Part shown: positions 40,401 to 62,093 of the stretch, piece by piece
How the letters are laid out: the number at the start of each line of letters is the position of its first letter
How positions within the stretch are numbered: the stretch's first letter is position 1
Source of the DNA: a virus
Length of the DNA: 64,000 bases
IMG/VR virus record: IMGVR_UViG_3300036792_000267
Span: 62,001 to 126,000 of that record
Reading direction: 5' to 3' (one strand)
Made by a program: the position numbers and the translations under genes
Notes under the pieces: generated by a model
The model's input: only the letters and a program-made list of their open reading frames with translations
Told to the model about the DNA's origin: nothing
Databases searched by the model: none

Positions 40401-42881
40401 GCCTACGCCACCGCCGCCAGCCTCGCGGAGAACGAGACCGAGGTGGTCAGCTGGACGTTCCAGTTGCTGCCCAACGTGCCGGGCAAGACGGTCTTCGACA
40501 ACTTCGACGTCGGCGACTGGGTGGGGCTAGAGCGCCCCGATTTCTCTGCCGTCGACACGGTGCGCGTGGTCGGCATCGCGGTGCAGTGCGACAGCTCCGG
40601 CGCCGAGACGCACGAGCTGACCTTCCAGAGCTACATCCAGTGGCTCGCCGAGCAGCTCACCTACCTGGCCAACAAGCTGGGCGGCGCGTTCGTCAACACC
40701 CTGGGCACTACGCCGGTCGCCCCGTCCAAGTACGGCACTGGCCAGGTCCCCACCTACTTCACCCCGGCCGCCACGCTGTCCGGCCTCGCCGACGTGTCCT
40801 CCACGGCGGGCACCGCCCAGGGCACCGCGCCGCTGGTCTACAACCCGGCCACCGGCCAGTACCAGCACGCCGGCTCCACCGACCCGGTGACCGGGCAGAC
40901 GATCCCGGTCACGGTGGCCACCCCGTCAGGCTCGGCCACCCTGGGCGACACCTCCGTGGTGGTCAACACCGGCAACGGCTCGACCACGGTGGGCCTGCAG
41001 GGCGACGGCACGGTGGCCACCGTCGCCACCGGGGGGTCCGCGCCGAGTGTGCCTGACGTGCCGGCCGTGGCCGGCATCGTGCAGGGCCTGGTGGTGAGCT
41101 GGGACGGCCTGCTGTCTGGCGCGCTGCCGCTGTCCAGCTTCTCCCACGTGGCTGTTTACGTCGGCACCACCAGCGGGTTCACCCCGTCCACATCCAACCA
41201 GGCTGGCTCGCTCAGCCAGGCGGGCGCGCTGAGCGTCGGGAACCTGACCGCCGGGTCCACCTACTACGTGAAGCTGGCCGCGCTCAGCAACTCGGGTGTC
41301 TCCTCGCCCCCCACCACCGGGATTACCGGCGTGCCCGGCACGGTGCCGACCTCGCTGCTCACCGGCCAGCTGCCGGCCAGCCTGCTGGGCAACAGCGCCG
41401 GCAACGCGCTCAACCCCAACCCGTACTTCAACGGCGGGGACCTGACCGGGTGGTTCGTCACCAACGGCACGGTGAGCGCCGCCGCGCCGCCGTCGGGAGC
41501 GCCGGGCGGCGCCCAGTTCGCAGCCCAGGTCTCCTCCACGTCCGCGAACTGCCTGCTGTCAGGTTCGCCTGACCCGTTCCCGGTCACGCCCGGCCAGCCG
41601 TACGTGATGACGGCCTGGGTCTACAACCCGGGCGGGACGTCGACCACGGTGGCCATCGGCTTCAACTGGGCGTCGGGCACCACCACGGTCAGCGTCGCGC
41701 CGGGCACGTGGGTGCCGCTCACCACCGTGCAGACCTGTCCGGGCGGGGTGACCAGCGCCTACCAGGTCATCGGCCCCACGGTTTCCGGCAAGACCATCTG
41801 GATACTGGGAGCCGTTGCCGCGGGCCAGGTGCCCGGCCAGCTCATCGCGGCGAACTCGGTGGCCGCGCAGCAGATCGCGGCGAACACCATCACCGCCGCG
41901 CAGATCGCCGCCAACACCATCACCGCAGCGCAGATCGCGGCGAACACCATCACCGCCAGCCAGATCGCCGCATCGACCATCACCGCAGCGCAGATCCTGG
42001 CATCGACCATCACCGCCAGCCAGATCGCGGCAGGCACCATCACCGCTGCCCAGATCGCAGCGAACACCATCACCGCCAGCCAGATCGCGGCGGGCACGGT
42101 CACCGCCACCCAGATTGCGGCGGGCATCGTGCTGGCCGGGGTGGTGAACGGCACCACCATCACGGGCTCCCAGTTTGTCGCCTTCGGGAGCACCGGCGAG
42201 ATCCTCGTTTACGCAGGCACGCCGGCATCAGGCAACCTCATCATGAGCGTGTCCGCCAACGCCGGCTCGGATGGCTTCTCGAACCCGTATAGCGCCGGCG
42301 TCTACGTCTACAACTCCAGTGGCGGCGCGATCGGCCTCACGGCGGCGGCCAACACCGCGCTGCAGCTGACGCCCGGCGTCACCCCGGCGGCGGTGACGGG
42401 CACCGCGCAGCTGTTCGCTAACTCCGGCGGACACGCCGTCGTGCAGGACGGCGGGGACGCCCAGGCCTACCAGATTCAGCGTCGCTCGCTGGTCGCCGGC
42501 TCTAACTCGGGGGCGCTGACTACCCCGTCCACTGTCTTCTCCACCATCTTCGGGCCGGCGCAGTACCGGGTGCACGGCCAGTGGTACGTCAACGCGACGT
42601 CCGGCGCGGTGTTCATGTGCAAGGTGATCGGCTCGGGGACCCTCGCCGGCATCGTCGGCGTCACCATCGCGGAAGGCGGCTCGTTTTCAGCCTGCGTGAC
42701 AGGCGGCCCCAACTCCAACATCGTCATTGCCGCCACGCTGGGCACGGCCACCTACCTGGTCACCCTGGACGGGGTGTTCGGCCAGACGGTCACCGGCCTG
42801 GTGGACTTCCAGGCCGGGTCTAACACCGGGACCAGCCTGGTGGTGGCCCAGTACTCATTCCTGGAAGTGATGCCTGTCTAG
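37455..42881 (+). CDS. giant tail-tip/fibre protein with two repeat arrays
   Basis: The 1808-aa product appears to be a mosaic. Residues 1-215 form a beta domain. Residues about 221-412 hold eleven 16-18-residue repeats built on ADAAGAAD. Residues about 450-1080 resemble the gp37-like tail-tip domain (WEINVRSAADYTTLLAVIPG; AVLNQDDPWWEQVTLPGG). A fibronectin-III-like domain spans about 1195-1290 (VQGLVVSWDGLLSG; YYVKLAALSNSGVSS). A carbohydrate-binding-like beta domain follows, then about ten 10-residue repeats (QIAANTITAA) at 1461-1560 and a C-terminal head domain, likely the receptor-binding part. GTG start with AAGGGAGG upstream. Confidence 0.85.
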   Translation: MAPSVVQALAVSNSLTGTLGTPTTAGNCLVYVIITETGTNVTMTVTGATLGGSAGNFAQAISKQSGFASSATQFVAIWVDRNCAGGQTAVAVAGTNLNIGAGTDNGYVVLEIAGLDTSSPVDTTAQASNAATTGTALSTGSTGTTAQASEIAVGGLSGFNSLSSYTSGYTTSGISGGFNTAGYKVLSATGTQSFGCNQSATGPWAAAVITLKAASGTVPVAQADVAGAADVLGASAAAPIADVAGAAESIVITVPAADTAGAADVLAANAAAPQADAAGAADSVVIGVPPADAAGATDSVAISIPAPQADAAGAADSLSVAVIAPMTDAGGAKDAAANITPTPADAGGAKDALTANAAVPARDAGGAADALGYLVGVAPGDAAGATEAVSVVVGITVRDEAGAVDATGVVGAGTGPTGFGSALPASVLNAYTGPGYQGGPSGAGSIAPSALGNGWEINVRSAADYTTLLAVIPGSMLVNWQFARMLNDIGSGTAVLNQDDPWWEQVTLPGGLATETLLDDECLWQVWKDGVCRFEFFGETITEQLVDGSEQRQVTVTGPGTLTSLKWAMVAPQGFPDIVLKLDGLLDAFDEVDNAGNPVLDTNIWTTASPASDVYITPIAVIYNYPTGAGYALSTLYPSGSLTLSATPGTTYLGASPYDATDTLISVEISPIGVSGSSTDTTTPTTYGTGLDGSELTQFYIQSNFNSSNYAMIGLSATAFYAQLGSGGQVQTKILPAYDTQSHGNWMITEQAGSGGGPGTFYFWTSTDGQNWVLQWQVVHSWDATNVTFFVTATYSTAGKQTVQISNLNSNVTTPSYQGSIYLGEPMMGVWLDQFSQAQRRGTIPFVTSTVTAAADSFGRAWNDTENVQATNGTDLYSFLQGATAVVDADFVMNPGFQLVVGVPAAGEVAVGVDRSGYLIFREGYDIQARQRTRARDQIATLIGGENSDGHEISAYSPAFITEWGQREAWFQTSAQVDPVSMAYATAASLAENETEVVSWTFQLLPNVPGKTVFDNFDVGDWVGLERPDFSAVDTVRVVGIAVQCDSSGAETHELTFQSYIQWLAEQLTYLANKLGGAFVNTLGTTPVAPSKYGTGQVPTYFTPAATLSGLADVSSTAGTAQGTAPLVYNPATGQYQHAGSTDPVTGQTIPVTVATPSGSATLGDTSVVVNTGNGSTTVGLQGDGTVATVATGGSAPSVPDVPAVAGIVQGLVVSWDGLLSGALPLSSFSHVAVYVGTTSGFTPSTSNQAGSLSQAGALSVGNLTAGSTYYVKLAALSNSGVSSPPTTGITGVPGTVPTSLLTGQLPASLLGNSAGNALNPNPYFNGGDLTGWFVTNGTVSAAAPPSGAPGGAQFAAQVSSTSANCLLSGSPDPFPVTPGQPYVMTAWVYNPGGTSTTVAIGFNWASGTTTVSVAPGTWVPLTTVQTCPGGVTSAYQVIGPTVSGKTIWILGAVAAGQVPGQLIAANSVAAQQIAANTITAAQIAANTITAAQIAANTITASQIAASTITAAQILASTITASQIAAGTITAAQIAANTITASQIAAGTVTATQIAAGIVLAGVVNGTTITGSQFVAFGSTGEILVYAGTPASGNLIMSVSANAGSDGFSNPYSAGVYVYNSSGGAIGLTAAANTALQLTPGVTPAAVTGTAQLFANSGGHAVVQDGGDAQAYQIQRRSLVAGSNSGALTTPSTVFSTIFGPAQYRVHGQWYVNATSGAVFMCKVIGSGTLAGIVGVTIAEGGSFSACVTGGPNSNIVIAATLGTATYLVTLDGVFGQTVTGLVDFQAGSNTGTSLVVAQYSFLEVMPV
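38116..38690 (+). repeat. ADAAGAAD coding repeats (11 units)
   Basis: Eleven imperfect units of 16-18 codons each begin (A/T/R/G)D-x-(A/G)GA-x-(D/E) and end in a hydrophobic strand and Pro. The later units switch to DAGGAKD. The array may be a flexible or beta-solenoid stalk and is a likely place for unit gain or loss. Confidence 0.85.
41838..42135 (+). repeat. 30-bp tandem repeats (QIAANTITAA, about 10 units)
   Basis: Ten consecutive 10-codon units vary on QIA-A-(N/G/S)-T-(I/V)-TA-(A/S/T). The DNA repeats are close to identical over many units, so recombination between them is expected. Such repeats form trimeric fibre shafts in many phages. Confidence 0.9.
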
Positions 42882-42905: not shown

Positions 42906-43199
42906 ATGACTGTCGGACGCCAGACCACCAGCAGCGAATACGACCAGCTCATTACCAGTGTCGCCGTGCAGGTGCGCAACGCCATGCGGGCCGCTGCCAA
43001 CCTGTCTCAGCAGGTGAACGGCCAGGGAGCCGGGCTGGCAGCCCTGGAAGCCTCCGGGTACAACGCCGACGACGCGGCGACCGCGCTGTCCGCCATCGGC
43101 TACCTGAACACCCCGGCTCAGCTGTACTTCGGGGCAGCGACGCAGCCGTCTGCGTTTGACTTCGACCAGGAACTCAGCCAGTACTGGGGCGGGCAGTAG
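42906..43199 (+). CDS. small tail-region protein
   Basis: The 97-aa product is mainly helical (SSEYDQLITSVAVQVRNAMR; ALEASGYNADDAATALSAIG) and ends YWGGQ. It is the last gene of the fibre block. Its last 26 bp overlap the end of the minus-strand DivIVA-like gene. Similar small proteins follow fibres in other actinophages; function unknown. Confidence 0.72.
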   Translation: MTVGRQTTSSEYDQLITSVAVQVRNAMRAAANLSQQVNGQGAGLAALEASGYNADDAATALSAIGYLNTPAQLYFGAATQPSAFDFDQELSQYWGGQ

Positions 43200-43815
43200 C
43201 CGGCTCGGCAGTCGCCCCGGAGTGGACCATCTGCTCCCACTCTGACAGGTTTTTCAGCAGCTCATCGACCTGGCCGCCGAGGCCGGCGCGCATGGTGCCC
43301 GCCAGCCCGGCGAGGAAGTCCGCCTGCTTGCGGGCCTCGGCGGTCGCCGAGTCGATGATGCGCGCCTTCTCGGCCGTGCCCTCCTCGGCAGCCTGGCGGA
43401 GGACGTCGGCGGCCTGCTGGCGGGCGTGCTCGGTCATCTGCCCGATGTCGCGGCGCGCGTCGGTGACGACGCGCCGGGCTTCCTCCTGCGCGTCGGCGAC
43501 CAGCTGGTCGGCGTGCTGCTGGGCGACGGACAGGATGCTGATTGCCCGCTCGCCGTTCGCCGCGGCCGGGTGCGGCCCGGTGGTCCGGTTGCCGAGCAGC
43601 CCGGTCAGCCGCTTGATCTCGCGCAGGAACTCCTCGCGCTCGGTGTGCATGTCGTCCAGTGCCCGGTGCACCATCTCCAGCTCACTGCAGACTCGGGCGC
43701 GGAACGCCTCGACCTCGGCGGGCCGGTAACCGCCCAGTACCTGTGACGGGAAATGAGCCTGGCGCACCTCGTCGCCGGTAATCCTCGGGCCGCCGAGCAG
43801 GCTGGTCCCTCCCAT
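43174..43815 (-). CDS. DivIVA-like protein
   Basis: The 213-aa product starts with a DivIVA N-terminal domain: ITGDEVRQAHFPSQVLGGYR then PAEVEAFRARVCSELEMVHR. A long coiled coil follows (EEFLREIKRLTGLLG; QQHADQLVADAQEEARRVVT, and on to residue ~180). DivIVA/Wag31 marks hyphal tips and directs polar wall growth in actinomycetes. A phage copy could mislocate or block the host protein. It lies on the minus strand with its own GGGAGG-led start, in contrast to the late genes on the plus strand, so it may be made at another time. Confidence 0.8.
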   Translation of the reverse strand: MGGTSLLGGPRITGDEVRQAHFPSQVLGGYRPAEVEAFRARVCSELEMVHRALDDMHTEREEFLREIKRLTGLLGNRTTGPHPAAANGERAISILSVAQQHADQLVADAQEEARRVVTDARRDIGQMTEHARQQAADVLRQAAEEGTAEKARIIDSATAEARKQADFLAGLAGTMRAGLGGQVDELLKNLSEWEQMVHSGATAEPATARPSTG

Positions 43816-43937
43816 ATGTACGTCCCTCCCCTGCCTGCTGCAATTGCAGGCACAAGTCGGGAGGCTACACCTGTCAGACGGTCCAGGTAGTTACTTGCCC
43901 TAATGCAAGTACATGTACCTAAGCCGGTGACAGGCGA
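43816..43937. promoter_or_regulatory. divergent regulatory region with two palindromes
   Basis: Between the DivIVA-like gene and the rightward gene lie CTGCAATTGCAG (43838-43849), a perfect 12-bp palindrome within a longer inverted repeat, and ACTTGC/GCAAGT (43893-43898 with 43905-43910). Both look like operators. The plus strand also has ACATGTAC just downstream. Confidence 0.5.
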
Positions 43938-43943
43938 CGATTG
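43938..43943 (+). promoter_or_regulatory. CGATTR start-associated element (CGATTG)
   Basis: CGATTG plus 7 nt (CCCGGCC) leads to ATG 43951. This decides between that start and an ATG at 43903 that overlaps a palindrome. Confidence 0.58.
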
Positions 43944-43950
43944 CCCGGCC

Positions 43951-44604
43951 ATGACCTCCATCTCCGGCAGCGACGGCATCCGCTGGCACCCTGTGTGCAC
44001 GATCGAGAAGTACTCTGCTGACCAGGTGCGCTACGCCCGGGAGCGTGGCGAGCTGCCGTGGCTGAAGCAGTTCACCCTGCCCCCGCGGGCGGCGCTGTCC
44101 GGCGACCTGATGCGCATGCTGTTCCGCGAGCCCGAGGGCGGCACCGTCCGCGACGAGGGCAACGGCACGACGGTGAATGGCACCGCCAACCTGGCGCTGC
44201 TGCTCACCGGTGCCGGCGGGCACCCGCTGGCACCGGGCCGGGCGGTGTTCGGGGTGGGCGGGGAGGACACCGAGTTCAGCCGCGAGCACGTGCACCTGAG
44301 CCCGGCCGGCGGCGAGGAGCCGGGCACCACCTGGTACCGGCCGATGGACCCCGGCTACCCGCTGGTTGTCCGGCCGGGGATCGTGGAGGGCCAGGCCACG
44401 TTCCTTGAGCACGAGGCCTGCTTCGAATGGCACGAGTGGTGCTGGGGGACCGGGCCGGGCAGGCCGGCGGCGCACCACTCGCTGCGCGGTTGCTACGGCG
44501 GCGAGCAGCCGGTCATGATGAACCGCAAGGCTCACCCGGCCGGCTACGGGATGAAGGACCCGGGGGTGGCCTGGTGCTTCCGGACTGAAATTCACCTAAA
44601 GTGA
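43951..44604 (+). CDS. hypothetical tail-associated protein
   Basis: The 217-aa product has no recognised family. Notable stretches are GGTVRDEGNGTTVNGTANLA, GHPLAPGRAVFGVGGEDTEF, SREHVHLSPAGGEEPGTTWY and an aromatic FEWHEWCWGTGPGR. The His, Asp and Trp content would suit a sugar- or metal-binding virion protein. It follows the fibre block and ends before a long noncoding stretch, so it is probably the last late gene. Confidence 0.72.
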   Translation: MTSISGSDGIRWHPVCTIEKYSADQVRYARERGELPWLKQFTLPPRAALSGDLMRMLFREPEGGTVRDEGNGTTVNGTANLALLLTGAGGHPLAPGRAVFGVGGEDTEFSREHVHLSPAGGEEPGTTWYRPMDPGYPLVVRPGIVEGQATFLEHEACFEWHEWCWGTGPGRPAAHHSLRGCYGGEQPVMMNRKAHPAGYGMKDPGVAWCFRTEIHLK

Positions 44605-44642
44605 CGTGGTACGAGGCGCAGTGATTGCTCTATCCTTGAGTG

Positions 44643-44713
44643 AAGGCCCCCGGGTCAGTCAGGCGACGTGTCCGTTCGAGCGAAGTTGGTACTGGTCTCA
44701 CCCCGGGGGCCTT
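44643..44713 (+). terminator. long-loop terminator-like hairpin
   Basis: AAGGCCCCCGGG (44643-44654) pairs with CCCGGGGGCCTT (44702-44713), followed by TGCTATG. The 47-nt loop contains an arm of a second, competing hairpin (44689-44740). Confidence 0.6.
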
Positions 44714-44740
44714 TGCTATGCTCCGGCACGAGACCAGTAC
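44689..44740 (+). promoter_or_regulatory. alternative hairpin competing with the terminator
   Basis: GTACTGGTCTC (44689-44699) and its exact complement (44730-44740) can pair only if the preceding hairpin is open or a pseudoknot forms, because each encloses one arm of the other. This is the layout of attenuators and antiterminators. Confidence 0.5.
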
Positions 44741-44992
44741 AAAACTTCAGCTCGACATCGGCACTGTCGCCTTTTGCATTTTGAACGGGCAGACCGCCTT
44801 CCTGTCGGCGCTTGTGCTGGTGGAGAAGCCCTGGGGCAGCTCTCCCCATGCGGACGGCGACAGACAGCCGGGGCACGGGCCGCCACCCTCGAACTTTTTT
44901 CGAGTTCTGGGGTAGGGGGCGAGCCATGCCCCGGCATGACAATAACGGCCCCTGTGTGCCCGGTGCGGTAACGTCAGTGTCCGGAGGTGAGC
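44741..44992. other. noncoding stretch before the regulatory region
   Basis: No convincing gene is seen. The stretch holds CTCGAA/TTCGAG (hairpin with T-rich loop near 44885) and CATGCC/GGCATG (near 44927). Short open frames here have no binding site. It probably carries the promoter for the gene at 44993. Confidence 0.5.
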
Positions 44993-45313
44993 GTGCCAGT
45001 TGACCCTGACTTGTCGCTGCCAGGCCTGGCCGCGCGGGTGCGGCAGTTTCTCGGCCACATTGAGGACATGAGCGACGATGAGCGGGTGTTCCTGCTCGGC
45101 GCGTTCGAGGGGGCGGTGGCCCGGCAGCAGCATGACCTGGACAGCGACGAGGCGCAGGCTGCGGTGGGCCGCTCGGTGGCGGCGCTGGAGGAGGACTGCT
45201 CGCAGGCCTGGCCCGGCTGCGTTCGCGGCGGCCTTGTCTGCGACTGCCGGCTGCGGGCGGTGCGCGCGGTCAACGCCCTGAAAATGCACCTGTCGCCCAG
45301 CGCGGGAAAATAA
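44993..45313 (+). CDS. small cysteine-containing protein
   Basis: The 106-aa product starts at GTG 44993, 6 nt after GGAGG (GTG 44987 is too close to that site). It is helical (LAARVRQFLGHIEDMSDDER) and ends with a Cys cluster (CSQAWPGCVRGGLVCDCRLR). It converges on the GntR-type gene and shares a terminator with it. Function unknown. Confidence 0.68.
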   Translation: MPVDPDLSLPGLAARVRQFLGHIEDMSDDERVFLLGAFEGAVARQQHDLDSDEAQAAVGRSVAALEEDCSQAWPGCVRGGLVCDCRLRAVRAVNALKMHLSPSAGK

Positions 45314-45341
45314 AGAACTCCGGGCCGCGGCCCGGAGTTCT
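45314..45341. terminator. 13-bp hairpin between convergent genes
   Basis: AGAACTCCGGGCC and its exact complement are separated by 2 nt. Placed between convergent stop codons, it can serve both strands. Confidence 0.75.
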
Positions 45342-45364
45342 CGTGTCCGCACGACACGCACATG

Positions 45365-46105
45365 CTACGGCTCGATGTCGGCCTCCACCACCTGGCCGGG
45401 CGGCAGGATGAACTCGGTGTAGGCGAGCAGCTTCTCCCCGGCCCGCCAGCCGCTCACCCCGGCGAGCACGTAGGCACCGGCCTCCAGCCCCAGTGCCGGC
45501 AGCTCCCGCCGGTCGTCTTTCGCCTGCCGGCACTCGAATGCGACGCCCCCGGTCAGGCTGTCCGGGTCGATGCCGGCCCGGACGGCGATGAGGTGAGCTG
45601 CCCCCTTCGGGTCGGGCAGCGGCGCCCGCTCGCCCAGCTCGGGCACCCTGATGAACCAGTACGGGGAAACCCAGGTGACGCTCAGCATGTGCGGGCTGCC
45701 GTCGGCCAGGGCGGTGACCTCCTCGCGGCGGATGACGGTGGCCCCGCGCTCGGGCAGGTCCAGCATCGGCACGATGTAGTCCGGCGCGTCGACCAGGCCG
45801 GCCGCGGTGACGGTCACCACCTCGGAGGCCGGCGCGATGTCCAGCCGCATCCGCTGCTGCGGTGACAGCGCCGCCCGCGGCTTGTCCACGTAGGTGCCGG
45901 ACGGGTCGGTGCGCACCAGCCGCTCGGCCAGGTGCAGGTGGGCAACCGCCTGCTGGGCCACGGTGGGCGCCACCACCCACTCGGCGGCAATCGCCCTCAC
46001 CGACGGCAGCAGGTCACCCTCGCGCAGCGCCCCGCTCAGGATTTCTTCCTTGTAGTGCTCGGCGATCTGCTGCCAGAGCGGCTTGTTCCGCTGGGCTCGG
46101 GGCAC
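45365..46105 (-). CDS. GntR/HutC-family transcription regulator
   Basis: The 246-aa product has an N-terminal GntR winged helix (PLWQQIAEHYKEEILSGALR; LLPSVRAIAAEWVVAPTVAQ) and a C-terminal UTRA ligand domain (ERGATVIRREEVTALADGSP; LLAYTEFILPPG). In Streptomyces integrative plasmids such as pSAM2, a regulator of this family (KorSA) represses the neighbouring transfer and replication genes. Here it is divergent from HTH, DUF2637 and FtsK-like genes, the same order. GTG start with AGGAGG 5 nt upstream. Confidence 0.87.
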   Translation of the reverse strand: MPRAQRNKPLWQQIAEHYKEEILSGALREGDLLPSVRAIAAEWVVAPTVAQQAVAHLHLAERLVRTDPSGTYVDKPRAALSPQQRMRLDIAPASEVVTVTAAGLVDAPDYIVPMLDLPERGATVIRREEVTALADGSPHMLSVTWVSPYWFIRVPELGERAPLPDPKGAAHLIAVRAGIDPDSLTGGVAFECRQAKDDRRELPALGLEAGAYVLAGVSGWRAGEKLLAYTEFILPPGQVVEADIEP

Positions 46106-46126
46106 GGTGGCCTCCTGTTATTCGGA

Positions 46127-46210
46127 CGGTACGGGTACGCCTCGAATTTTACGCGCCTGCCGTCCAGTTCAGCGGAACATATTGCGTACCTGTACCGTTC
46201 ACCGTACAGT
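46127..46210. promoter_or_regulatory. divergent promoters with paired GntR-type operators
   Basis: CGGTACGGGTACG (46127-46139) and CGTACCTGTACCG (46185-46197) are inverted copies of one motif (12 of 13 match) and are probable operator sites. The second lies in the spacer of a plus-strand promoter TTGCGT-17 bp-TACAGT (46182-46210). A minus-strand -10, TAAAAT at 46151-46146, lies just upstream of the first site. Confidence 0.65.
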
Positions 46211-46259
46211 GAGGGAATCGCAGTGATTCCACTGGAGACCGGCGGAGGGTCGCAGGGAG

Positions 46260-46523
46260 ATGAGCAAGGGCACAGAGGCAGCAGGGGACCGGCTGGTCCG
46301 GTGGTCGGACGCTGCCCTTGAACTCGGCGTGTCCGTCGACACCCTGGAGGCATGGCTGGAGGACGGGATCGTGCCGTTGCGGCGTACCCCCGGGCTGCGG
46401 CTCACCTGGCGGTCGTGGGTGGACGCGGTGCTGGCCCCCAGCGAGCCGGGCACTGACGGCGACATCGCCAAGGTGACCGCCGCCTGGTGGGCGGCCCGCC
46501 GCCCGCTGGGGGAGGTGGCATGA
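46260..46523 (+). CDS. small helix-turn-helix protein (excisionase/MerR-like)
   Basis: The 87-aa product has a MerR-type recognition unit: LVRWSDAALELGVSVDTLEA, then WLEDGIVPLRRTPGLRLTWR. Excisionases and plasmid regulators share this fold. No integrase gene is in the window. It overlaps the next gene by 4 bp and is the first gene of the rightward module. Confidence 0.75.
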   Translation: MSKGTEAAGDRLVRWSDAALELGVSVDTLEAWLEDGIVPLRRTPGLRLTWRSWVDAVLAPSEPGTDGDIAKVTAAWWAARRPLGEVA

Positions 46524-47386
46524 TGCGCGAGTTTTCTGCTGCTGTGATTACGGCGGTCCGCGAGCGCGCCTCCGCGCTGGTCATCGGGCTGTCGCTGGCG
46601 ACCGTGGCACTGACCACGGGCTTCATTTCCTACACCCACATCAGCGCGCTGACCATCCACGAGCACCAGAGCTGGAAGAGCGCGCACCTGTACCCGCTGA
46701 CCGTGGACGGCCAGATCGCCATCGGCTCGGTCATCCTCATGGAGATGAAGGGCAAGCACCGCTGGTGGGGCCTGGTCGGCTTCCTGCCGGGCCTGGTCGA
46801 GTCCCTGGTGGCCAACTGGGCGAGCGGCTGGCAGGGCCACAACCTGGGCGCGGCCCTGTGGTCCACGGTCCCCGCGCAGGCGTTCGCCTGCTCCACGTTC
46901 CTGTTCGAGATGTGGCTGCGGTACCGCCGCCGGGCGCAGCCGTCCGCGGTCACGGAATCCGGTGACGCGGCGCCGCCCCGCACCGCTACGCTGCTCGCTG
47001 AGTCTTCCCCGCAGGCACCCGGGCCCGCCGCACCCGCGGCCCAGGAAGCCGCCCCGGTGGACGTGCACCTGCACGCCGCGCCGGCGGGAGCGCCGTGGGG
47101 CCTGGTGAGCCCCGCGGCTGCTCCCCTGCCTGTCCCGTCGTTCGCCGTCCCGGTGGCGGGGCCGTTCATGACGCTGGCCAGCCGGCCGAAGCCGGCCCGC
47201 CCGCGCCGCCCGCAGGCGGTGCCGGGCGAGAACGACGAGCGGCTGCCGCTGCCGCAGGACCCGGCGGAGCTGCGCGCGCTGGTCAACTCGATGAGCCGCA
47301 ACGCCCTGTGGCAGGGCTACCGGGTCTCCAAGCACGGCGCGGACAAGCTCCGCGATGACTACCTGGACGAGAGGGAGGTGGCCTGA
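46520..47386 (+). CDS. DUF2637-like membrane protein (Spd/transfer type)
   Basis: The 288-aa product has about four membrane helices in its first 140 residues (ASALVIGLSLATVALTTGFI; SYTHISALTIHEH; IAIGSVILMEMKGK; GLVGFLPGLVESLVANWASG), the pattern of DUF2637 proteins encoded on Streptomyces plasmids and conjugative elements. A Pro/Ala-rich cytoplasmic linker and a basic tail (LWQGYRVSKHGADKL) follow. In plasmids these proteins work with the TraB translocase in intramycelial spread. GGGGAGG lies 7 nt before the ATG. Confidence 0.8.
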   Translation: MMREFSAAVITAVRERASALVIGLSLATVALTTGFISYTHISALTIHEHQSWKSAHLYPLTVDGQIAIGSVILMEMKGKHRWWGLVGFLPGLVESLVANWASGWQGHNLGAALWSTVPAQAFACSTFLFEMWLRYRRRAQPSAVTESGDAAPPRTATLLAESSPQAPGPAAPAAQEAAPVDVHLHAAPAGAPWGLVSPAAAPLPVPSFAVPVAGPFMTLASRPKPARPRRPQAVPGENDERLPLPQDPAELRALVNSMSRNALWQGYRVSKHGADKLRDDYLDEREVA

Positions 47387-47387
47387 C

Positions 47388-49439
47388 ATGCCGTCGACCG
47401 ACACCACGCCGACCATTAAGCAGCAGGCCAGGCACGCCCGCAGCGAGACGCTGAGCGTGCTGGTCCGCATGGGCGTGCCGTGGGCCGTCTTCCTCGCGCT
47501 GACCGTCATGGGCAACGTGCTCTACATCGCGCTCGGCAAGTTCGTGGACCACGGGGAGTACATCGGGCTGACCGCCGCGCTGCTGCTGGCCTCCGGCATC
47601 GGCACGGCGGCGTTCGACATGCACCTGCGCCGCCACCGGATGTCGGCGGTCGGCCGCCTCATCGGCCCGGTCACCATCGGCGCTGGCGCCGCGATGGGCG
47701 GCGCGTTCCTGCTGGCCGGGTACTGGGTGCCGCTGGTGCTGGCGTGGGCGTTCGGCGGCATCTCCGGCTCGATCGGCTGGGACGCCTGGCTGCACCACGC
47801 CGCCCACCATGACCTGTCCGTCGGGTTCGGCGCGGCGACGGAGAAGGCGGGCCTGGGCACCGCGCGGGTGCTGCCCGCGACGGCCTCTGCCCGCAAGCCG
47901 GGTGACGCCCCGGCCAGGCCAGGGCGCAAGAGGGGCACGCCCGCCCGCCGCGTCCTGTCGGGCACGGTGGCGCTGGAGGGCGGCGAGGTCACCCCGGCCG
48001 ACGCCGCCGAGCGCGCCGCCAACCTGGAGGGCGCGCTCGGCTTCCCGCCGGGCGCGCTGGGCCTCACCCAGAACTTCCGGCAGGCCGGCTTCGCCGACTA
48101 CACCGTCTCCGACCCGGCGGTGCTCGCCGAGCCGTGGGCCTGGCCGGGCCCGAGCGCGCCCGGGGCGGGCATGGACACCTCGTTCCGGCTGGCGGTGCGC
48201 CAGGACGGCGAGCCGTGGCTGGTGAACTTCGTGCCGGTCTTCCACACCCGGGGGACCGGGATGACCGGCACCGGCAAGACGATGAGCTGGCTGTGGAACC
48301 GGCTGGCGGAGGGGGTGACCCGCGAGGGCTACGCCGCGGTCGCGGTGGACGTGACGAAGATGTGGCAGTTCCTCGGTCCCGTCCGGGCCGGCCTGCACGC
48401 CGCCGCGGTCGACCCGCCCTCCGCGCTGAAGCTGTTCGCGGCGCTGGAGCGGGTGCGGGTGGCCCGCCTGGACTACCTGGCGAAAAACCACATGACCGAG
48501 TGGACGATGGGCTGCGGCCTGTCTTACCTGGACATCGCGCTGGAGGAGCTGGGCGAGATCCTGAAGGCACTCGCCGAGGCGTCCAAGGCGAGTGCCCGCG
48601 CGCCGTTCGGCGGCCAGGACCGCGGTCGGGCGACGGCGTTCGACATGGACACCTGGTTCACCAACGTCCGCTCCGGCCGCTCCACCGGGATGAGCTGGAA
48701 CACCTCCAACCAGACCGGCAAGCACTCCAGCTTCCCGACCGACGTGCGCGGCAACTTCCACTCGCTCACCTTCGGGCTGGACGACGCCAACGACGTGAAG
48801 ATGGCACTGTCCGACCGGCAGATGCGGGCCGGGGTCCGCCCCACCCTGTGGGGCAGCAGCCAGCCGGGCACGGCGGTGGCCGACTTCGAGGGGATGACCG
48901 AGCACGAGGCAGCCATGCCGGTGCGGTTCTTCGACTGGGGCAAGTCCCCGGCGGCCGGCCACGCCATCGCCGCCTACATGGAAGGCTGGGAGGCGGCCGG
49001 CCGGCCGTGGGACGACGTGACCGGCGAGGCGTTCGAGGCTGAGCCGGCCGACCCGGCCAGCTACGGGCTGCCCGGCCCCGGCGGCACGCTGCCCGGCCCC
49101 GGCCGGCCGCGCAAGGACTCGACGGTGGTGGCCGGGCCGTGGAAGGGGGCCGCCCCCGGCCCGGCCGTCCACCCGCAGGACGAGGAGGCCATCAGGGCCG
49201 AGCGGGCGCTGTGGCAGCTGCTGCTGAAGATGTACGCCGAGGGAACCGACGTGACGGGGGCGCACGAGATCATGACCCGCAAGGAGTTCGCGGCCACGGT
49301 GAACCGCTCGCGCGGGTGGATCTACACCGCGATGAAGGGCTTCGCCAACACCGGTCAGGCGCAGGCGCTGACCGGCGGGACCCGCCAGCAGTGGCGGATC
49401 GTCCCGCAGGCGCAAGTGCAGGCCGAGGGCGAGGACTGA
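47388..49439 (+). CDS. FtsK/TraB-like DNA translocase
   Basis: The 683-aa product has three or four N-terminal membrane helices (residues 22-135), a linker, and a motor domain with a Walker A GMTGTGKT (Lys297). A hydrophobic-acidic candidate Walker B lies at about 377-391 (SYLDIALEELGEI), and later conserved blocks are MSWNTSNQTGKHSSFPTDVR and RPTLWGSSQPGTAV. The C-terminus holds a winged-helix-like region (KEFAATVNRSRGWIYTAMKG) that may recognise clt-like repeats. TraB of Streptomyces plasmids moves double-stranded DNA between hyphae. ATG 47388, with GGGAGG upstream, follows the DUF2637 gene by 1 nt. Confidence 0.82.
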   Translation: MPSTDTTPTIKQQARHARSETLSVLVRMGVPWAVFLALTVMGNVLYIALGKFVDHGEYIGLTAALLLASGIGTAAFDMHLRRHRMSAVGRLIGPVTIGAGAAMGGAFLLAGYWVPLVLAWAFGGISGSIGWDAWLHHAAHHDLSVGFGAATEKAGLGTARVLPATASARKPGDAPARPGRKRGTPARRVLSGTVALEGGEVTPADAAERAANLEGALGFPPGALGLTQNFRQAGFADYTVSDPAVLAEPWAWPGPSAPGAGMDTSFRLAVRQDGEPWLVNFVPVFHTRGTGMTGTGKTMSWLWNRLAEGVTREGYAAVAVDVTKMWQFLGPVRAGLHAAAVDPPSALKLFAALERVRVARLDYLAKNHMTEWTMGCGLSYLDIALEELGEILKALAEASKASARAPFGGQDRGRATAFDMDTWFTNVRSGRSTGMSWNTSNQTGKHSSFPTDVRGNFHSLTFGLDDANDVKMALSDRQMRAGVRPTLWGSSQPGTAVADFEGMTEHEAAMPVRFFDWGKSPAAGHAIAAYMEGWEAAGRPWDDVTGEAFEAEPADPASYGLPGPGGTLPGPGRPRKDSTVVAGPWKGAAPGPAVHPQDEEAIRAERALWQLLLKMYAEGTDVTGAHEIMTRKEFAATVNRSRGWIYTAMKGFANTGQAQALTGGTRQQWRIVPQAQVQAEGED

Positions 49440-56013: not shown

Positions 56014-56793
56014 ATGGCAATGACACCAGAGCAGATGCAGCGCCTTGAGCGGGACGCCTCGCTCATGGCGGTCGCGCACTCGCTGACCGCGGCCGAGCGG
56101 GTGCTGTTCCTCGGCAAGGTCGCGCGCCGGTACCCGCGCCTCCTGGGTGCGGACGTGGCCGACGTGCTCGATTTCACCAACGACTACGACGAGTTCCTTG
56201 ACCAGACCGAGCCGTTTTTCGAGCGGTTCGACGCGCAGATGCCGGACGTGCCGGGTGTCATCTTCGCGGCGCACGTCATCATCGTGATGGGCTGGAAGCT
56301 GACCCCCGGCCGGGTGTGGTCCCTCCTGCAGCGCGCCGGCGCGGTCGACGCGCCGCGTTACCCCGAGGTCGAGGTGGGCCTGTGGGTGCACGAGCACGAT
56401 CTTGGGGGAGGGCCGTGCACCGCCGACGCGAATGAAGCGCTGCTCAGGGCCCGCGCTGAGCAGGGCCTGCGCGCAGCAGGAATTTCCGAGAGTGAGATAA
56501 CGGAGTTCCGTGAGTCGGTGCGCCTGCGGCCGGGCAGCCTGACCCTGCAGCTGGGACTGCAGTGGAACGTGGCCGACATCGCGAAGTGGGTGACCTTGGT
56601 GGACCGCTTCACCGAGATGCCGCGCAAGGTCTACGACCCTATCCATGACCTGGCGGTGGTGCTGCACTGGGCGTCCGCTGAGCCGGGTGACCCGGATGAC
56701 CAGGCGCTGGCCAACCTCCGCTCGCACCTGGACATGCGCGCGCCCGAGACGATCGAGGCCAGCCTTAACTCGTTCTTCGGCAAGGAGGCCTGA
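56014..56793 (+). CDS. hypothetical early protein, all-helical
   Basis: The 259-aa product is helical and acidic throughout (MAMTPEQMQRLERDASLMAV; AERVLFLGKVARRYPRLLGA; FDAQMPDVPGVIFAAHVIIV). No Cys motif, no membrane segment and no known family. It heads a three-gene unit and has the canonical early leader. Confidence 0.7.
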   Translation: MAMTPEQMQRLERDASLMAVAHSLTAAERVLFLGKVARRYPRLLGADVADVLDFTNDYDEFLDQTEPFFERFDAQMPDVPGVIFAAHVIIVMGWKLTPGRVWSLLQRAGAVDAPRYPEVEVGLWVHEHDLGGGPCTADANEALLRARAEQGLRAAGISESEITEFRESVRLRPGSLTLQLGLQWNVADIAKWVTLVDRFTEMPRKVYDPIHDLAVVLHWASAEPGDPDDQALANLRSHLDMRAPETIEASLNSFFGKEA

Positions 56794-56794
56794 C

Positions 56795-57049
56795 ATGGAA
56801 GACAAGCAGCACAAGGGCCCGGGTCACGGCGACGTGGACCTCAGCCTGGCCGCCGTCACCCCGGACGGCGACCAGTACTACCGCTCGTGGACGATTTGCG
56901 AGTGCTCGGGGCTGTACCAGCGCCTGGATACCATCCTGGGCCCGCCGCAGCAGGAGAGCGTGGTGCCCGCGGAGGTGGTGCGCGCTACCGCCGCGGCGGT
57001 GCTGGCCGTGCCGGGGGCTGTGCGTTTTCTCGGTACGGAGGGCAACTGA
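56795..57049 (+). CDS. small hypothetical protein
   Basis: The 84-aa product (MEDKQHKGPGHGDVDLSLAA; YYRSWTICECSGLYQRLDTI) starts 1 nt after the previous stop with GGAGG upstream. It has two close Cys and a helical end. Unknown. Confidence 0.68.
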   Translation: MEDKQHKGPGHGDVDLSLAAVTPDGDQYYRSWTICECSGLYQRLDTILGPPQQESVVPAEVVRATAAAVLAVPGAVRFLGTEGN

Positions 57050-57050
57050 C

Positions 57051-57470
57051 GTGCACTGGATCAAGTTCACTACCTGCGAGATGGCCTACGGGCGCGACCA
57101 CGGCTACCTGGTCATCCGCGAGGAGTCGGGGGTGCGGCTCGGCCGCTTCTCCATCGACGCCGGCGCCCGTAACCTGCACGCCGTGGTCGCGCGGGAGGTG
57201 CTGGCGAGCGCCCTTGTCTTCCCGCTGGGCCGCGGGCCCGGCCGCCCTGGCGGTGACCCGGAGCTTGACGCCCTGGTGGCGTCGGCCAAGGTGTACGCCG
57301 AGCGGTTCGAGGCGGGGGAGAGCATGGTGGGCCCCGACTGGCGCGGCCGGGCCTGGCAGCATGATGACCAGGCAAAGCCGGACCCTAATGCCGGCCGCTG
57401 CCCTGGCCCCGGCGGGTGCCTCCCCGACGAGCCCTGCATCTACCGTGGCGACGACTGCGCGCCTCGCTGA
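57051..57470 (+). CDS. hypothetical protein with C-terminal cysteines
   Basis: The 139-aa product begins at GTG 1 nt after the previous stop. A mixed domain (GYLVIREESGVRLGRFSIDA) is followed by CPGPGGCLPDEPCIYRGDDC, four Cys that could form a zinc or disulphide knot. Unknown function. Confidence 0.7.
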   Translation: MHWIKFTTCEMAYGRDHGYLVIREESGVRLGRFSIDAGARNLHAVVAREVLASALVFPLGRGPGRPGGDPELDALVASAKVYAERFEAGESMVGPDWRGRAWQHDDQAKPDPNAGRCPGPGGCLPDEPCIYRGDDCAPR

Positions 57471-57487
57471 GCGGAATAGTTCTTCTG

Positions 57488-57517
57488 CTTGACTCCAGTC
57501 AAGACAATGGGTAACCT
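57488..57517 (+). promoter_or_regulatory. SigA-like promoter with palindromic operator
   Basis: CTTGACTCCAGTCAAG (57488-57503) contains the -35 TTGACT; 17 bp later is TAACCT (57512-57517). The leader to ATG 57553 contains GAAGGGCAGGCACC. Confidence 0.8.
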
Positions 57518-57552
57518 GGTGCCGTAAGCACTACTGAAGGGCAGGCACCCCG

Positions 57553-58056
57553 ATGACTGAGATCGAGACGCTTTCCGAGGACGCCATCGTCGTCCTGGCC
57601 GCGCTGCGCGACGCGTCCACCATCCGCCGCGAGCCGACCGCCGCGCACCCGAGCGGCTACCAGCGCTTTTTCACCGTCACCAACCTGGTGTCCGACGGGC
57701 TGCTATTCGGCGGGGACCTGCGCAACATGCGCGGCATCGCCGCCCTGGACAAGACCGCGCGCGGTCTCTACAAGAAGGGCCTGGTGCACGCGCAGACCTT
57801 GCACACGCGCCGCTACTACGCGCTGACCGACGCCGGGGAGGCGCTGCTGGCCAGGATCGAGAAGGAGGCCGGCGTTGACGGCCTGGTGGCCGCGGAGATC
57901 GAGCACCGCAAGGCCCGTGCCGAGGCCGAGGCCGCGCAGGCCCGTGCCCGCGACGCCATGGAGGCGCTGAGGCTGGCCCGCAAGGCGGCCGGAGCGCGCT
58001 ATTCGCTGGAGTCGCTGTTGGACGCGCGCCGCGAGCACCCGCTGAGCAGGAGGTAA
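57553..58056 (+). CDS. winged-helix-like DNA-binding protein
   Basis: The 167-aa product has an N-terminal winged helix (DAIVVLAALRDASTIRREPT; LDKTARGLYKKGLVHAQTLH; RRYYALTDAGEALLARIEKE) and a C-terminal coiled coil (HRKARAEAEAAQARARDAME). The pattern fits PadR-like regulators, where the coil makes the dimer. It is a candidate for control of the early promoters. Confidence 0.72.
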   Translation: MTEIETLSEDAIVVLAALRDASTIRREPTAAHPSGYQRFFTVTNLVSDGLLFGGDLRNMRGIAALDKTARGLYKKGLVHAQTLHTRRYYALTDAGEALLARIEKEAGVDGLVAAEIEHRKARAEAEAAQARARDAMEALRLARKAAGARYSLESLLDARREHPLSRR

Positions 58057-58060
58057 GACG

Positions 58061-58738
58061 ATGCCTAAGCAGTACGAGGACTACACCACCGGCCCGGACG
58101 GCGACGAGCACCACCCGGCTTTCGGCCTGGTCGCCCTTCACCGGATCAGCGCCAGCCCTGGCGCGGACCTGTTCCAGTCGGACGTCCGGCACCCGGAGTA
58201 CATGCGGGTCACGGTTCACGAGGCCACTCGCAAGCGCGACGGGTACCGCGACTGGGTGCACCCGGAGCGGGTGGTCTGCGAGATCAGCCTTTCGATGGCG
58301 CAGTTCGCATCGTTCGTGGCCAGCACCGGCCAGGGCAGCGGGGTCCCGTGCACGATCGAGTGGACCACCGCCGGCACGCACGAGCCGGGAGACCGGCCGG
58401 GGCTTCTGCCGGCACCGCGGCTCTCGCTCACCCATGACGAGGTGCGGGCGGCGGCGCACGAGGCGTTCAGGGGCATCAAGGCGGCCGAGTCGGCGTACTG
58501 GAACGCGGTGGACAACAAGGCACCGGCTGCGGAGCGCAAGCAGCTCCGGGCGAAGCTGAGTGCCGCGATCCGCAACGCCGAGCCGAACGTGGAGTACGCG
58601 GCCAAGACGCTGGACGAGCACGCCGGGGCCGTGGTGGAGCAGTCCCGCACCGACGTTGAGACCATGGTCTTTGAGGCGGCTAAGCGGGCTGGCATCGAGC
58701 CGGAGGCGATCGTCCGCGCCATCACCGATGGGTCGTGA
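58061..58738 (+). CDS. hypothetical early protein
   Basis: The 225-aa product has a beta-rich N-terminal half (ADLFQSDVRHPEYMRVTVHE; VVCEISLSMAQFASFVASTG) and a helical C-terminal half (SAAIRNAEPNVEYAAKTLDE). The N-terminal pattern resembles small beta-barrel early proteins but no family is certain. AGGAGG precedes the ATG. Confidence 0.7.
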   Translation: MPKQYEDYTTGPDGDEHHPAFGLVALHRISASPGADLFQSDVRHPEYMRVTVHEATRKRDGYRDWVHPERVVCEISLSMAQFASFVASTGQGSGVPCTIEWTTAGTHEPGDRPGLLPAPRLSLTHDEVRAAAHEAFRGIKAAESAYWNAVDNKAPAAERKQLRAKLSAAIRNAEPNVEYAAKTLDEHAGAVVEQSRTDVETMVFEAAKRAGIEPEAIVRAITDGS

Positions 58739-58742
58739 CACC

Positions 58743-59042
58743 GTGAAGTGGCCCTGGCGTAAGCTCGCACCCCGGCTGCCTGCCCGGAGGTGGTTCGCGG
58801 ACGATGACGGCACCTTCTACCGCAACTGCCCGCTCATCGACGCTGAGCGGGACGAGGTGATGGCGTGGCCGCTGCTCACGCCGGGCAAGTTCGGGGCCTT
58901 GGAGGCCGAGTGGCGCGAGACGTTCAAGGCTGGCGTGCAGCGTAAGGCTGCGCTTGACCCTGGTGACGTGGTGGTCACCCCCGCGCCGTTCCGCGAGGCG
59001 TATCCGCATCACCCGGGCTTGTGGGTGCTTGACGATGACTGA
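58743..59042 (+). CDS. hypothetical early protein
   Basis: The 99-aa product (KWPWRKLAPRLPARRWFADD; WPLLTPGKFGALEAEWRETF) has a basic start and mixed remainder. GTG 58743 is preferred; an in-frame ATG at 58728 would overlap the previous gene. No clear binding site. Unknown. Confidence 0.62.
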   Translation: MKWPWRKLAPRLPARRWFADDDGTFYRNCPLIDAERDEVMAWPLLTPGKFGALEAEWRETFKAGVQRKAALDPGDVVVTPAPFREAYPHHPGLWVLDDD

Positions 59043-59496
59043 CCGGGTTACGCGGGTGTACCGCCTGGACATTCAATATCCCGAGGGGAGCGACGCCCCC
59101 GGGTGGGTGCCCGCGTGCTGGCCTGAGTTCCTGGCGAACATCAAGGACAAGGCGCAGCGCCGTGCGTTGCGCCGCCGCGGGTTCCGCTGGCCGCGCGAGC
59201 ACCTGTACCTGTCGGCGTCGGGCGCGTGGTCGCGTGCCTGGCTGCTCATGTCGTTCGGCGCGGAGGTCTACGTGGAGGCGTCCGACCCGGTGACCTGGCC
59301 CGAGTGGCAGGACTCCAGCGCCAACGGGCGCGGCTGGGAGAGCGGCAGCACGGCGGCGCGCTGGGCGCCTCCGGAGCCGGAGGTAAGCGCAGCGGATGTC
59401 TTCCGCGAGCAGGCCGCCGGCTTCTGGGCTGCTTACTTCGAGGGCAAGGGGCCACCAGCCGACCGGGGGGCACTACAAGCTGAGGGAGAATCCTGA
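59035..59496 (+). CDS. hypothetical early protein
   Basis: The 153-aa product overlaps the previous gene by 8 bp. It is Trp- and Arg-rich (KDKAQRRALRRRGFRWPREH; ASGAWSRAWLLMSFGAEVYV) with an acidic, helical end. Unknown. Coupled to the next gene in TGATG. Confidence 0.68.
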   Translation: MTDRVTRVYRLDIQYPEGSDAPGWVPACWPEFLANIKDKAQRRALRRRGFRWPREHLYLSASGAWSRAWLLMSFGAEVYVEASDPVTWPEWQDSSANGRGWESGSTAARWAPPEPEVSAADVFREQAAGFWAAYFEGKGPPADRGALQAEGES

Positions 59497-59831
59497 TGTT
59501 CCGGAGGAAGACGGCACCTGAGCCGGAGCGCAGCCCGCACCCGGACCCGCGTGTTGAGGCGCAGCTGCAGCACGTCCTGGCCTTGTACGCCTCAGCTCAC
59601 CGGACTGAGGAACGCCTGGCGGACATCGCGGCGGAGCAGAAACTGCTTGACCAGAAAGCCCGTGCCTATGCCGACGAGCCTGGCACGTCGAAGCGACTGG
59701 CGGAGCAGTCAGGCCGGCTGCGTGCCGAGCGCGCGGAGCTGGAGGCGTTCATCGGCCAGGTGCACGAGGACATTACTTCCCGGCTGGTGAGCCTGGGGAA
59801 CGACGCCCTGTACCTGCACGCGGCATCGTGA
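59496..59831 (+). CDS. coiled-coil protein
   Basis: The 111-aa product is a charged coiled coil (VEAQLQHVLALYASAHRTEE; LDQKARAYADEPGTSKRLAE; GRLRAERAELEAFIGQVHED). It is likely an oligomer or partner-binding protein. It ends the unit that began at 57553. Confidence 0.68.
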   Translation: MFRRKTAPEPERSPHPDPRVEAQLQHVLALYASAHRTEERLADIAAEQKLLDQKARAYADEPGTSKRLAEQSGRLRAERAELEAFIGQVHEDITSRLVSLGNDALYLHAAS

Positions 59832-59843
59832 GTTAGTTATTTG

Positions 59844-59873
59844 CTTGACTGTAGTCAAGACACCCCGTAGACT
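59844..59873 (+). promoter_or_regulatory. SigA-like promoter with palindromic operator
   Basis: CTTGACTGTAGTCAAG (59844-59859) contains the -35 TTGACT; 17 bp later is TAGACT (59868-59873). The leader to ATG 59907 reads CAACCGAAGGGCAGGCACC. Confidence 0.82.
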
Positions 59874-59906
59874 GGTGCTGTAACCAACCGAAGGGCAGGC
59901 ACCCCG

Positions 59907-60209
59907 ATGACCGAGAACACCGCCGCTGACATGGCGCAGCTCCGCGAGCACGTGATTGAGGCCCGCGAGTCCGCGCAGTTCCTGGCGGTCGCGTACGGCG
60001 ACAGCGGGAGCGAAACGGGCGCGGCGAACGTCGAGGGCCAGGTGAAGGCCTATAACGACGTGCTGCGCATGATCGACCGTTACGTGCTGCAGCCGGGCGA
60101 GCGCCGCGCGGCCAACGGCGTCGTCATCGGCTCGGGCGCGCGCCCGGACATCCCGCGCTTCGGCGCCGACGAGACCGACAACGACTACCCGCCAGAGGCT
60201 CCGGAATGA
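59907..60209 (+). CDS. small early protein
   Basis: The 100-aa product (MTENTAADMAQLREHVIEAR; VEGQVKAYNDVLRMIDRYVL) is helical with a Gly/Asp-rich end. First gene of a nine-gene unit. Unknown. Confidence 0.7.
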   Translation: MTENTAADMAQLREHVIEARESAQFLAVAYGDSGSETGAANVEGQVKAYNDVLRMIDRYVLQPGERRAANGVVIGSGARPDIPRFGADETDNDYPPEAPE

Positions 60210-60481
60210 GCGGCGTCTCGGTTCAGGTGGGCCCGCGGTCGGTCGGCGAGCGCTGTGCGGCCTGGGGACTGGCAATCGCGCGGGACAGGTTCATGACCGT
60301 CCTGGTGGTTGCCGCTGTCGTGTTCGAGGCTGTTCTGGTCACGGTCATCATGCTGGCCAATGCTGCGGCGCGCGACTCCGGGCCCGCGGTCTTCACCCCG
60401 CCGACGGCGTTCTGCCCGGCAGGCCAGTACGTAACAAGTATCAGCGCGTCCGGGTGGCCGGTCTGCGTTCCCGGCCACTAG
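60206..60481 (+). CDS. single-pass membrane protein
   Basis: The 91-aa product has a cytoplasmic N-terminus, one membrane helix (FMTVLVVAAVVFEAVLVTVI) and an outer segment with two Cys (CPAGQYVTSISASGWPVC). It overlaps the previous gene by 4 bp. Unknown; possible envelope-level exclusion. Confidence 0.7.
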   Translation: MSGVSVQVGPRSVGERCAAWGLAIARDRFMTVLVVAAVVFEAVLVTVIMLANAAARDSGPAVFTPPTAFCPAGQYVTSISASGWPVCVPGH

Positions 60482-60493
60482 AAGGGCAGGCGC

Positions 60494-60712
60494 ATGGCAC
60501 TGAACGACGAGGATCTGCTGAAGCTCGTGAGTGAGCTGAACAGCGACTACAACGAGGACGTCGGCGAGTTCGGCGGTTACGTGACGTACAGCATCGACGC
60601 CGGCGTGCTCACGGTGAAGGCCCAGATGGCCACCGACGCGGACGGCCAGCAGCCCCTGGAGGCTACGGAGCGGTCCTGGCGGCTGGTTCCCGTACGTCCG
60701 GGTGGCGAGTGA
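60494..60712 (+). CDS. small acidic early protein
   Basis: The 72-aa product (MALNDEDLLKLVSELNSDYN; VTYSIDAGVLTVKAQMATDA) has the early GAAGGGCAGGC binding site but no promoter of its own. It resembles small inhibitor-like acidic proteins; unknown. Confidence 0.7.
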   Translation: MALNDEDLLKLVSELNSDYNEDVGEFGGYVTYSIDAGVLTVKAQMATDADGQQPLEATERSWRLVPVRPGGE

Positions 60713-60713
60713 A

Positions 60714-61127: not shown

Positions 61128-61258
61128 TCCTCACCTTGTTCGAGGCTGCGCTGTCGGCCTGCGTGGCCGCGTGGCTCAAGATCTGCGAGAGCCTGCCTGA
61201 CCTGCTTGCGGTCATCTTCCTCGCCCGCGTGGGCCTGACCCTGGCGCGTGTCCGGTGA
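61124..61258 (+). CDS. 44-aa hydrophobic peptide
   Basis: A GTG in GTGA opens a 44-codon frame of two hydrophobic helices (ILTLFEAALSACVAAWLKIC; LLAVIFLARVGLTLARVR). Its stop overlaps the next GTG. Likely a small membrane peptide. Confidence 0.6.
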   Translation: MILTLFEAALSACVAAWLKICESLPDLLAVIFLARVGLTLARVR

Positions 61259-61494: not shown

Positions 61495-61496
61495 TC

Positions 61497-62029: not shown

Positions 62030-62031
62030 TA

Positions 62032-62062: not shown

Positions 62063-62093
62063 GCCCGTAGGCAACCGAGCGAAGGGCGGGCAT

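Follow-up and report, generated by a model that had tools for sequence, protein, structure and literature searches.

Among the plasmids that use it, TraB is the sole plasmid protein required for transfer (PMC4170104); one TraB moves double-stranded DNA, and its hexamers form on 8-bp clt repeats (PMC4170104, PMC3218068, PMC3583192). During spread across septa, TraB interacts with SpdB2, a membrane protein that binds DNA (PMC4170104), and the transfer of pSAM2 is under kil-kor control, with KorSA (PMC3218068). In pSVH1, pIJ101 and pSAM2, which are plasmids or actinomycete integrative and conjugative elements (AICEs), a repressor gene is divergent from small genes, a gene for a membrane partner and a gene for a single FtsK-like TraB, and a TraB of this type has membrane segments, a motor and a winged helix. 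The subject of this study is a block of similar layout in the viral genome IMGVR_UViG_3300036792_000267 (hereafter G000), a record of 151,377 bp in IMG/VR. The window examined is a stretch of 64,000 nucleotides, bases 62001-126000 of that record, and positions refer to the window unless the record is named. The control and transfer block in this phage genome is intact, has a fixed order and is kept across six phages.

A plasmid-type block in a group of phages

Because of its virion genes, its replication genes and a gene content collinear with that of Microbacterium phage Magritte, G000 is a phage genome rather than part of a plasmid. Its terminase large subunit has tblastn matches in 348 phage records, and the top match is Magritte (OR553905; 47% identity), a 133-kb siphovirus without annotated lysogeny genes and the closest isolate found by terminase. 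About 30 proteins are shared between the two genomes, largely in the same order, and their replication and virion genes are collinear; the portal and capsid genes of G000 were assigned by this collinearity, and virion and transfer genes lie on one molecule. However, Magritte has no match to TraB or to the coupling ATPase described below, and its helicase gene follows the tail genes within about 2 kb, whereas extra genes span about 56 kb at this point in G000, starting near the module. G000 also encodes a 2758-aa protein of tape-measure size, two sigma-like factors and a replication set comprising RecA, DNA polymerase I, a clamp, a clamp loader and a DnaB-type helicase. Almost every gene is on one strand, and the ends carry a 127-bp direct repeat, as is left when a molecule that is circular, or circularly permuted, is assembled. 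The virion gene order recurs in other contigs of the group, which consists of large, lytic-looking, siphovirus-like phages whose hosts are probably mycelial actinobacteria of soil.

TraB is carried by five viral contigs besides G000, namely 3300050821_010639 (G001), 3300036790_000419 (G002), 3300036831_000148 (G004), 3300036792_000363 (G005) and 3300035704_000001 (G006). The order of repressor, helix-turn-helix (HTH), membrane protein and TraB genes is identical in the six contigs (124-152 kb), and in the compared phages the module occupies the same place, after the tail genes. A further contig, G003, breaks off 157 bases upstream of the repressor start codon; therefore, the lack of the remaining module in G003 is uninformative. 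TraB is absent from 14 other terminase relatives, which are mostly short or more distant, and it has no match at E<=1e-5 in 50,697 records of deposited phages. The six phage proteins are 38-80% identical and keep the ATPase motifs, and in a tree they form one branch (100/100) apart from seven plasmid TraB proteins. Their nearest relatives belong to plasmids of Nonomuraea (Streptosporangiaceae), to a Thermobispora phage-plasmid and to Streptomyces. A reading made earlier from the sequence of the window (the sequence-only reading) had proposed a Streptomyces-type control and transfer block in a phage. This proposal is borne out more strongly than it was made, by the conservation throughout the group and by a VirD4/TraG-type ATPase gene elsewhere in the genome. 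Its likening of the block to that of pSAM2 holds for the architecture of repressor, HTH protein, membrane protein and TraB, as judged by layout, but the closest TraB relatives found are from Streptosporangiaceae plasmids.

The group is known from metagenome contigs alone, with no isolate among the deposited phages, and it could be argued that the block results from a chimeric contig of plasmid and phage or from a recent, non-functional insertion. This reading is contradicted by the conservation of the module and is highly improbable: six contigs share the gene order, the reading frames are intact at 38-80% identity, the promoter-operator region is conserved, and G000 carries the end repeat.

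The predicted motor, its partner and their control

The TraB homologue is a protein of 683 aa encoded at 47388..49439 on the plus strand; an alternative start in the same frame lies at 47355. The protein has N-terminal membrane segments, an FtsK-like motor and a C-terminal winged helix. The hidden Markov model (HMM) search that the sequence-only reading had named as a check found the NCBIfam family plasmid_TraB at E 2.9e-39. The score of 135 bits, from three matching stretches, misses the equivalog cut-off of 800 bits, and therefore the phage protein is a divergent relative rather than a certified equivalog; the plasmid TraB proteins of T. bispora (431 bits) and pNon2 (402 bits) are likewise below this cut-off. 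Pfam FtsK_SpoIIIE has no match to the G000 protein. When profiles of the six phage and seven plasmid TraB proteins were compared by hhalign, the probability was 100% (E 2.2e-68) over 593 columns, which take in the membrane segments and the motor as well as the C-terminal domain. The plasmid profile in turn aligns with Escherichia coli FtsK (E 2.4e-10), with the Walker A motif GMTGAAKT placed on GTTGSGKS and the Walker B motif EEAAD on DEFAD. Because the direct alignment of the phage profile to E. coli FtsK is weak, the link to FtsK runs via plasmid TraB.

In the phage protein, Walker A is GMTGTGKT (residues 291-298; 48258..48281, plus strand), and the pattern G-x4-[GA]-K-T is present in all six phage TraB proteins. 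The Walker B region (48543..48557, plus strand) contains Glu387, which is invariant in the alignment of the six and matches FtsK DEFAD via the EEAAD of plasmid TraB. Hydropathy indicates three hydrophobic stretches within residues 21-127, and a low-confidence model has four long helices. The C-terminal winged helix (residues about 599-671; 49182..49400, plus strand) is the best-modelled part of the protein, with a predicted local distance difference test score (pLDDT) of 60-84 and the order helix-strand-helix-helix-helix-strand-strand, and the alignment with plasmid TraB continues through this domain; a Foldseek search returned winged-helix proteins at a probability of 0.96 but with E about 1. 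For the motor we make no structural claim, since the top Foldseek match, the conjugation coupling protein TcpA, has E 0.49 and the pLDDT is low. A search of the PDB by sequence gave nothing useful. On the question of the motor, the sequence evidence answers positively, in favour of an FtsK-type motor. The FtsK/TraB-like translocase of the sequence-only reading is confirmed at this level by the family match, the full-length profile match and the Walker motifs.

The two genes upstream of TraB complete the predicted operon. Its first gene (46260..46523, plus strand) encodes a small HTH protein that is MerR/BldC/excisionase-like on weak matches (MerR, E 0.0011, below the Pfam cut-off; a PHROG excisionase/regulator, E 0.0013) and is kept in the sister phages. 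The second (46520..47386, plus strand) encodes a DUF2637 membrane protein whose C-terminal segment is HTH-like and which is a candidate Spd-type partner of TraB. It scores 25.5 bits against the Pfam cut-off of 22.8, could be aligned across five phages and is also above the cut-off in G002 and G005; in G006, this slot holds a different, longer membrane protein without a DUF2637 match. In several plasmids, too, a DUF2637 gene is found close to TraB. In G000, the HTH gene shares the four bases ATGA (46520-46523) with the DUF2637 gene, a single base separates the DUF2637 stop codon from the ATG of TraB, and all reading frames of the module are open, which agrees with the earlier description of the genes as tightly spaced and intact.

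The divergent gene (45365..46105, minus strand) encodes a GntR-family repressor that is KorSA-like by position and domain. It was previously read as a GntR/HutC repressor; the GntR domain is found above the Pfam cut-off (E 6.1e-9), but the UTRA/HutC effector domain is not detected by Pfam. The repressor is kept in G001, G002 and G003 at 68-74% identity and is also present in G004-G006. GntR genes are similarly divergent from TraB-type blocks in plasmids of T. bispora, S. mobaraensis and Streptomyces NBC_01508.

The 154-bp divergent region between the repressor and HTH genes is conserved among the sister phages. A predicted promoter of the transfer operon can be read on the plus strand at 46182..46210, with TTGCGT (46182-46187), a 17-nt spacer and TACAGT (46205-46210). 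The pattern TTGCGN-17-TACAGT occurs as a single copy in each of G000-G003, always at this site, and the surrounding block is conserved in seven genomes. An operator candidate, CTGTACCGTTCACCGTACAG (46190..46209), is a perfect 6+6 palindrome that spans the spacer and the -10 element. Its exact sequence occurs only once in the entire record, the window included; the palindrome is perfect in G000, G001, G003 and G004 and degenerate in G002, G005 and G006. The layout is that of an operator candidate that would block its own promoter. Of the paired operator-like sites claimed earlier, this palindrome stands, but a second conserved stretch (46115-46127), which overlaps the ribosome-binding region of the repressor gene, is not clearly palindromic.

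Lifestyle of the phages and possible use of the block

The sequence-only reading had also suggested that the virus could persist like a phage-plasmid. If the phage were temperate, the module could serve the conjugative spread and upkeep of a plasmid-like prophage, in which the GntR protein would act as a silencing repressor; such a quiet state would suit a repressor-controlled module. There are precedents. The plasmid pZL12, or Streptomyces phage ZL12 (NC_013420), combines a phage genome with a transfer block that includes the FtsK-like gp71 and the GntR protein gp80; however, this plasmid-phage is temperate and encodes ParA, ParB and an integrase. The resemblance of gp71 to TraB is only distant (E 1e-6), and a single G000 protein, not one of the virion proteins, matches pZL12. 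The closest TraB relatives (33-35% identity) are on the Thermobispora bispora ZC4 plasmid NZ_CP039125 and on Nonomuraea pNon2 (NZ_LT559121), both of which have the order GntR/UTRA, small genes and TraB, and the Thermobispora plasmid in addition encodes a portal, a protease and a capsid protein of phage type. Unlike G000, they are resident plasmids with ParA and integrase, and pNon2 also has ParB; beyond TraB, the comparison with G000, which took in 38 kb of pNon2, gave only one weak HTH match. Bases 1-34646 of NZ_CP039125.1 are repeated at 108211-142855 (99.95%), and its TraB module is unannotated; the real size of this element may be about 108 kb.

The precedents of pZL12 and the Thermobispora plasmid are therefore partial, since both come with integrase and ParA. 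Tyrosine integrase (PF00589), serine recombinase (PF00239) and ParB were not found in any of the seven genomes G000-G006, although the same integrase search recovered both phage-plasmids used as controls, and the search for ParB recovered pZL12. In addition, no close terminase relative or prophage was found in 84,980 bacterial genomes, and in its core genes G000 is a large lytic-type phage, collinear with Magritte. These results give no support to persistence in a plasmid-like state, although systems that escaped detection are possible, and we consider a temperate phage-plasmid to be quite unlikely. Compared with pSVH1, pIJ101 and pSAM2, the block differs in its phage carrier and its own TraB branch, and no integrase, ParB, relaxase or clt repeats were found. 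By gene content, it is not an AICE, which is defined by a site-specific integrase, nor, on this evidence, part of a phage-plasmid. Searches of the open-access literature turned up no TraB module described for a phage that lacks plasmid functions.

At the level of sequence, the phage keeps each plasmid protein role: a motor carrying a winged helix, a membrane partner whose C-terminus is HTH-like and a repressor with a candidate operator. The most economical reading would be that the phage moves its own DNA between compartments with this pump. We put the probability at roughly one half that the block is a captured plasmid transfer pump, kept as a regulated accessory and used to pass replicated phage DNA from one mycelial compartment to another. 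The GntR repressor would keep the TTGCG-17-TACAGT promoter closed early in infection. After derepression, TraB would form a hexamer anchored in the membrane at septa or where hyphae meet, assisted by the DUF2637 protein in the plasmid role of SpdB2; its winged helix would recognise phage DNA, and replicated double-stranded DNA would be pumped to the next compartments or hyphae, which would let the infection spread through the mycelium ahead of lysis. Since actinobacterial DivIVA marks septa and hyphal tips, a phage DivIVA-domain protein could perhaps position the pump. The gene concerned (43174..43815, minus strand; Pfam DivIVA E 3.8e-9, above the cut-off) adjoins the module, 1.5 kb from the repressor gene, and encodes a possible polar or septal localiser whose membership of the module is uncertain; homologues are present in G001-G003, and DivIVA is found in G006 too. 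Should the module function as its plasmid counterparts do, it would let a virus of multicellular bacteria spread from cell to cell inside a colony without particles. This would bear on how phages pass mycelial barriers and on the development-linked containment of infection (PMC10117723), and the boundary between conjugation and viral infection would be one that a phage without a recognised plasmid life can cross.

A second conjugation-like gene lies outside the window, at record 6384-8096 (plus strand), where G000 encodes a VirD4/TraG-type coupling ATPase of 570 aa (TraG-D_C, E 1.5e-15), which is carried by five of the seven phages (G000 and, as close relatives, G001-G004). It has no match in deposited phages and has matches in 334 plasmid records; in Streptomyces plasmids, a gene of this type lies beside a DUF2637 gene in one case and near a MobF relaxase in another. 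Its P-loop reads GVPQSLKT in G000 and GVPQ[ST][LI]KT in the four aligned proteins, with the second Gly missing. Pfam scans of most non-virion proteins of at least 85 aa found no relaxase and no channel of a type IV secretion system. A phage with two DNA-pump-like ATPases and a nearby DivIVA-domain gene might employ TraB as a membrane-anchored pump that positions, segregates or helps to clear phage replication products or the host chromosome within the multigenomic hypha, without transfer from cell to cell, and FtsK-family motors are capable of such work. Nevertheless, a Spd-like membrane partner and Kor-like control accompany TraB as in transfer plasmids, which argues for transfer over segregation, and a packaging terminase is already encoded. 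We therefore regard a purely intracellular role as unlikely.

The evolution of TraB within the group can be read in more than one way. TraB of G000 and G002 is 48% identical, whereas the terminases are 92% identical; the identity of the G005 terminase is 83%, and TraB of G002 groups with that of G005 (96/97). This discordance suggests that TraB alleles have been exchanged between phages. The nonsynonymous to synonymous rate ratio (dN/dS, Nei-Gojobori) was rejected because dS is not credible where third codon positions are 97-99% G+C. That phage TraB is strongly diversified and the terminases are not would also fit a weapon or shield, in which TraB harms or arrests the mycelium by a kil/kor effect or blocks rival plasmids or phages, and transfer of pSAM2 is under control of the kil-kor kind (PMC3218068). 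However, every catalytic and DNA-binding part of TraB is kept, which plain toxicity would not need, and no exclusion genes were recognised; we give this idea little credence. A more elaborate form of the transfer reading would combine two infection routes, particles outside the mycelium and a conjugation-like pumping of naked double-stranded phage DNA across septa or hyphal contacts inside it, with a pump placed by DivIVA and TraB alleles swapped for DNA specificity. We offer it tentatively, as possible but doubtful.

Several observations weigh against transfer of phage DNA by the pump. The faster divergence of TraB compared with the virion proteins fits specificity switching but fits relaxed use too. 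No TraB match was found in the Streptomyces phages that are closest by terminase and likewise have mycelial hosts. AlphaFold2, with six sequences as input, reached a pLDDT of 44 for full-length TraB and 33 for the motor alone, and it gave no usable model of the motor. Finally, the search for 8-bp clt-like repeats proposed in the sequence-only reading was negative: no repeated sites of 7-9 bp were found near TraB, and no array was found to be shared between the genomes, although degenerate sites would escape such a search. Shared clusters were seen only in the giant tail-fibre gene, at the 3′ end of which the sole clustered repeat common to the genomes has a 30-nt period, ACCATCACCGCC..CAGATCGC (G000 record 103871-104036, window about 41871-42036). 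It is kept in four genomes and most likely represents coding repeats. In G006, two near-identical AT-rich palindromic blocks, AGATATCTAGATATC, are located just downstream of TraB (L060:12244-12393) and are candidates for a cis site or a terminator.

Neighbouring genes and other features

Between the DivIVA and repressor genes, a conserved protein of unknown function is encoded at 43951..44604 on the plus strand; it is 60-71% identical in G001-G003, and its membership of the module is uncertain. Complete flavohaemoglobin genes with globin, FAD and NAD domains adjoin the DivIVA gene in two sister phages (L058:3867-5054 and L060:4785-5909, both on the minus strand), with none seen in G000, and their role is possibly the detoxification of nitric oxide. 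Elsewhere, G000 has an array of 36 tRNA genes (record 56197-62595; window part 40-595) and a gene for a 965-aa radical SAM protein (record 43488-46385). It also encodes the ribosomal protein bL12 (L7/L12) at record 12156-12542, on the minus strand, opposite to nearly all other genes.

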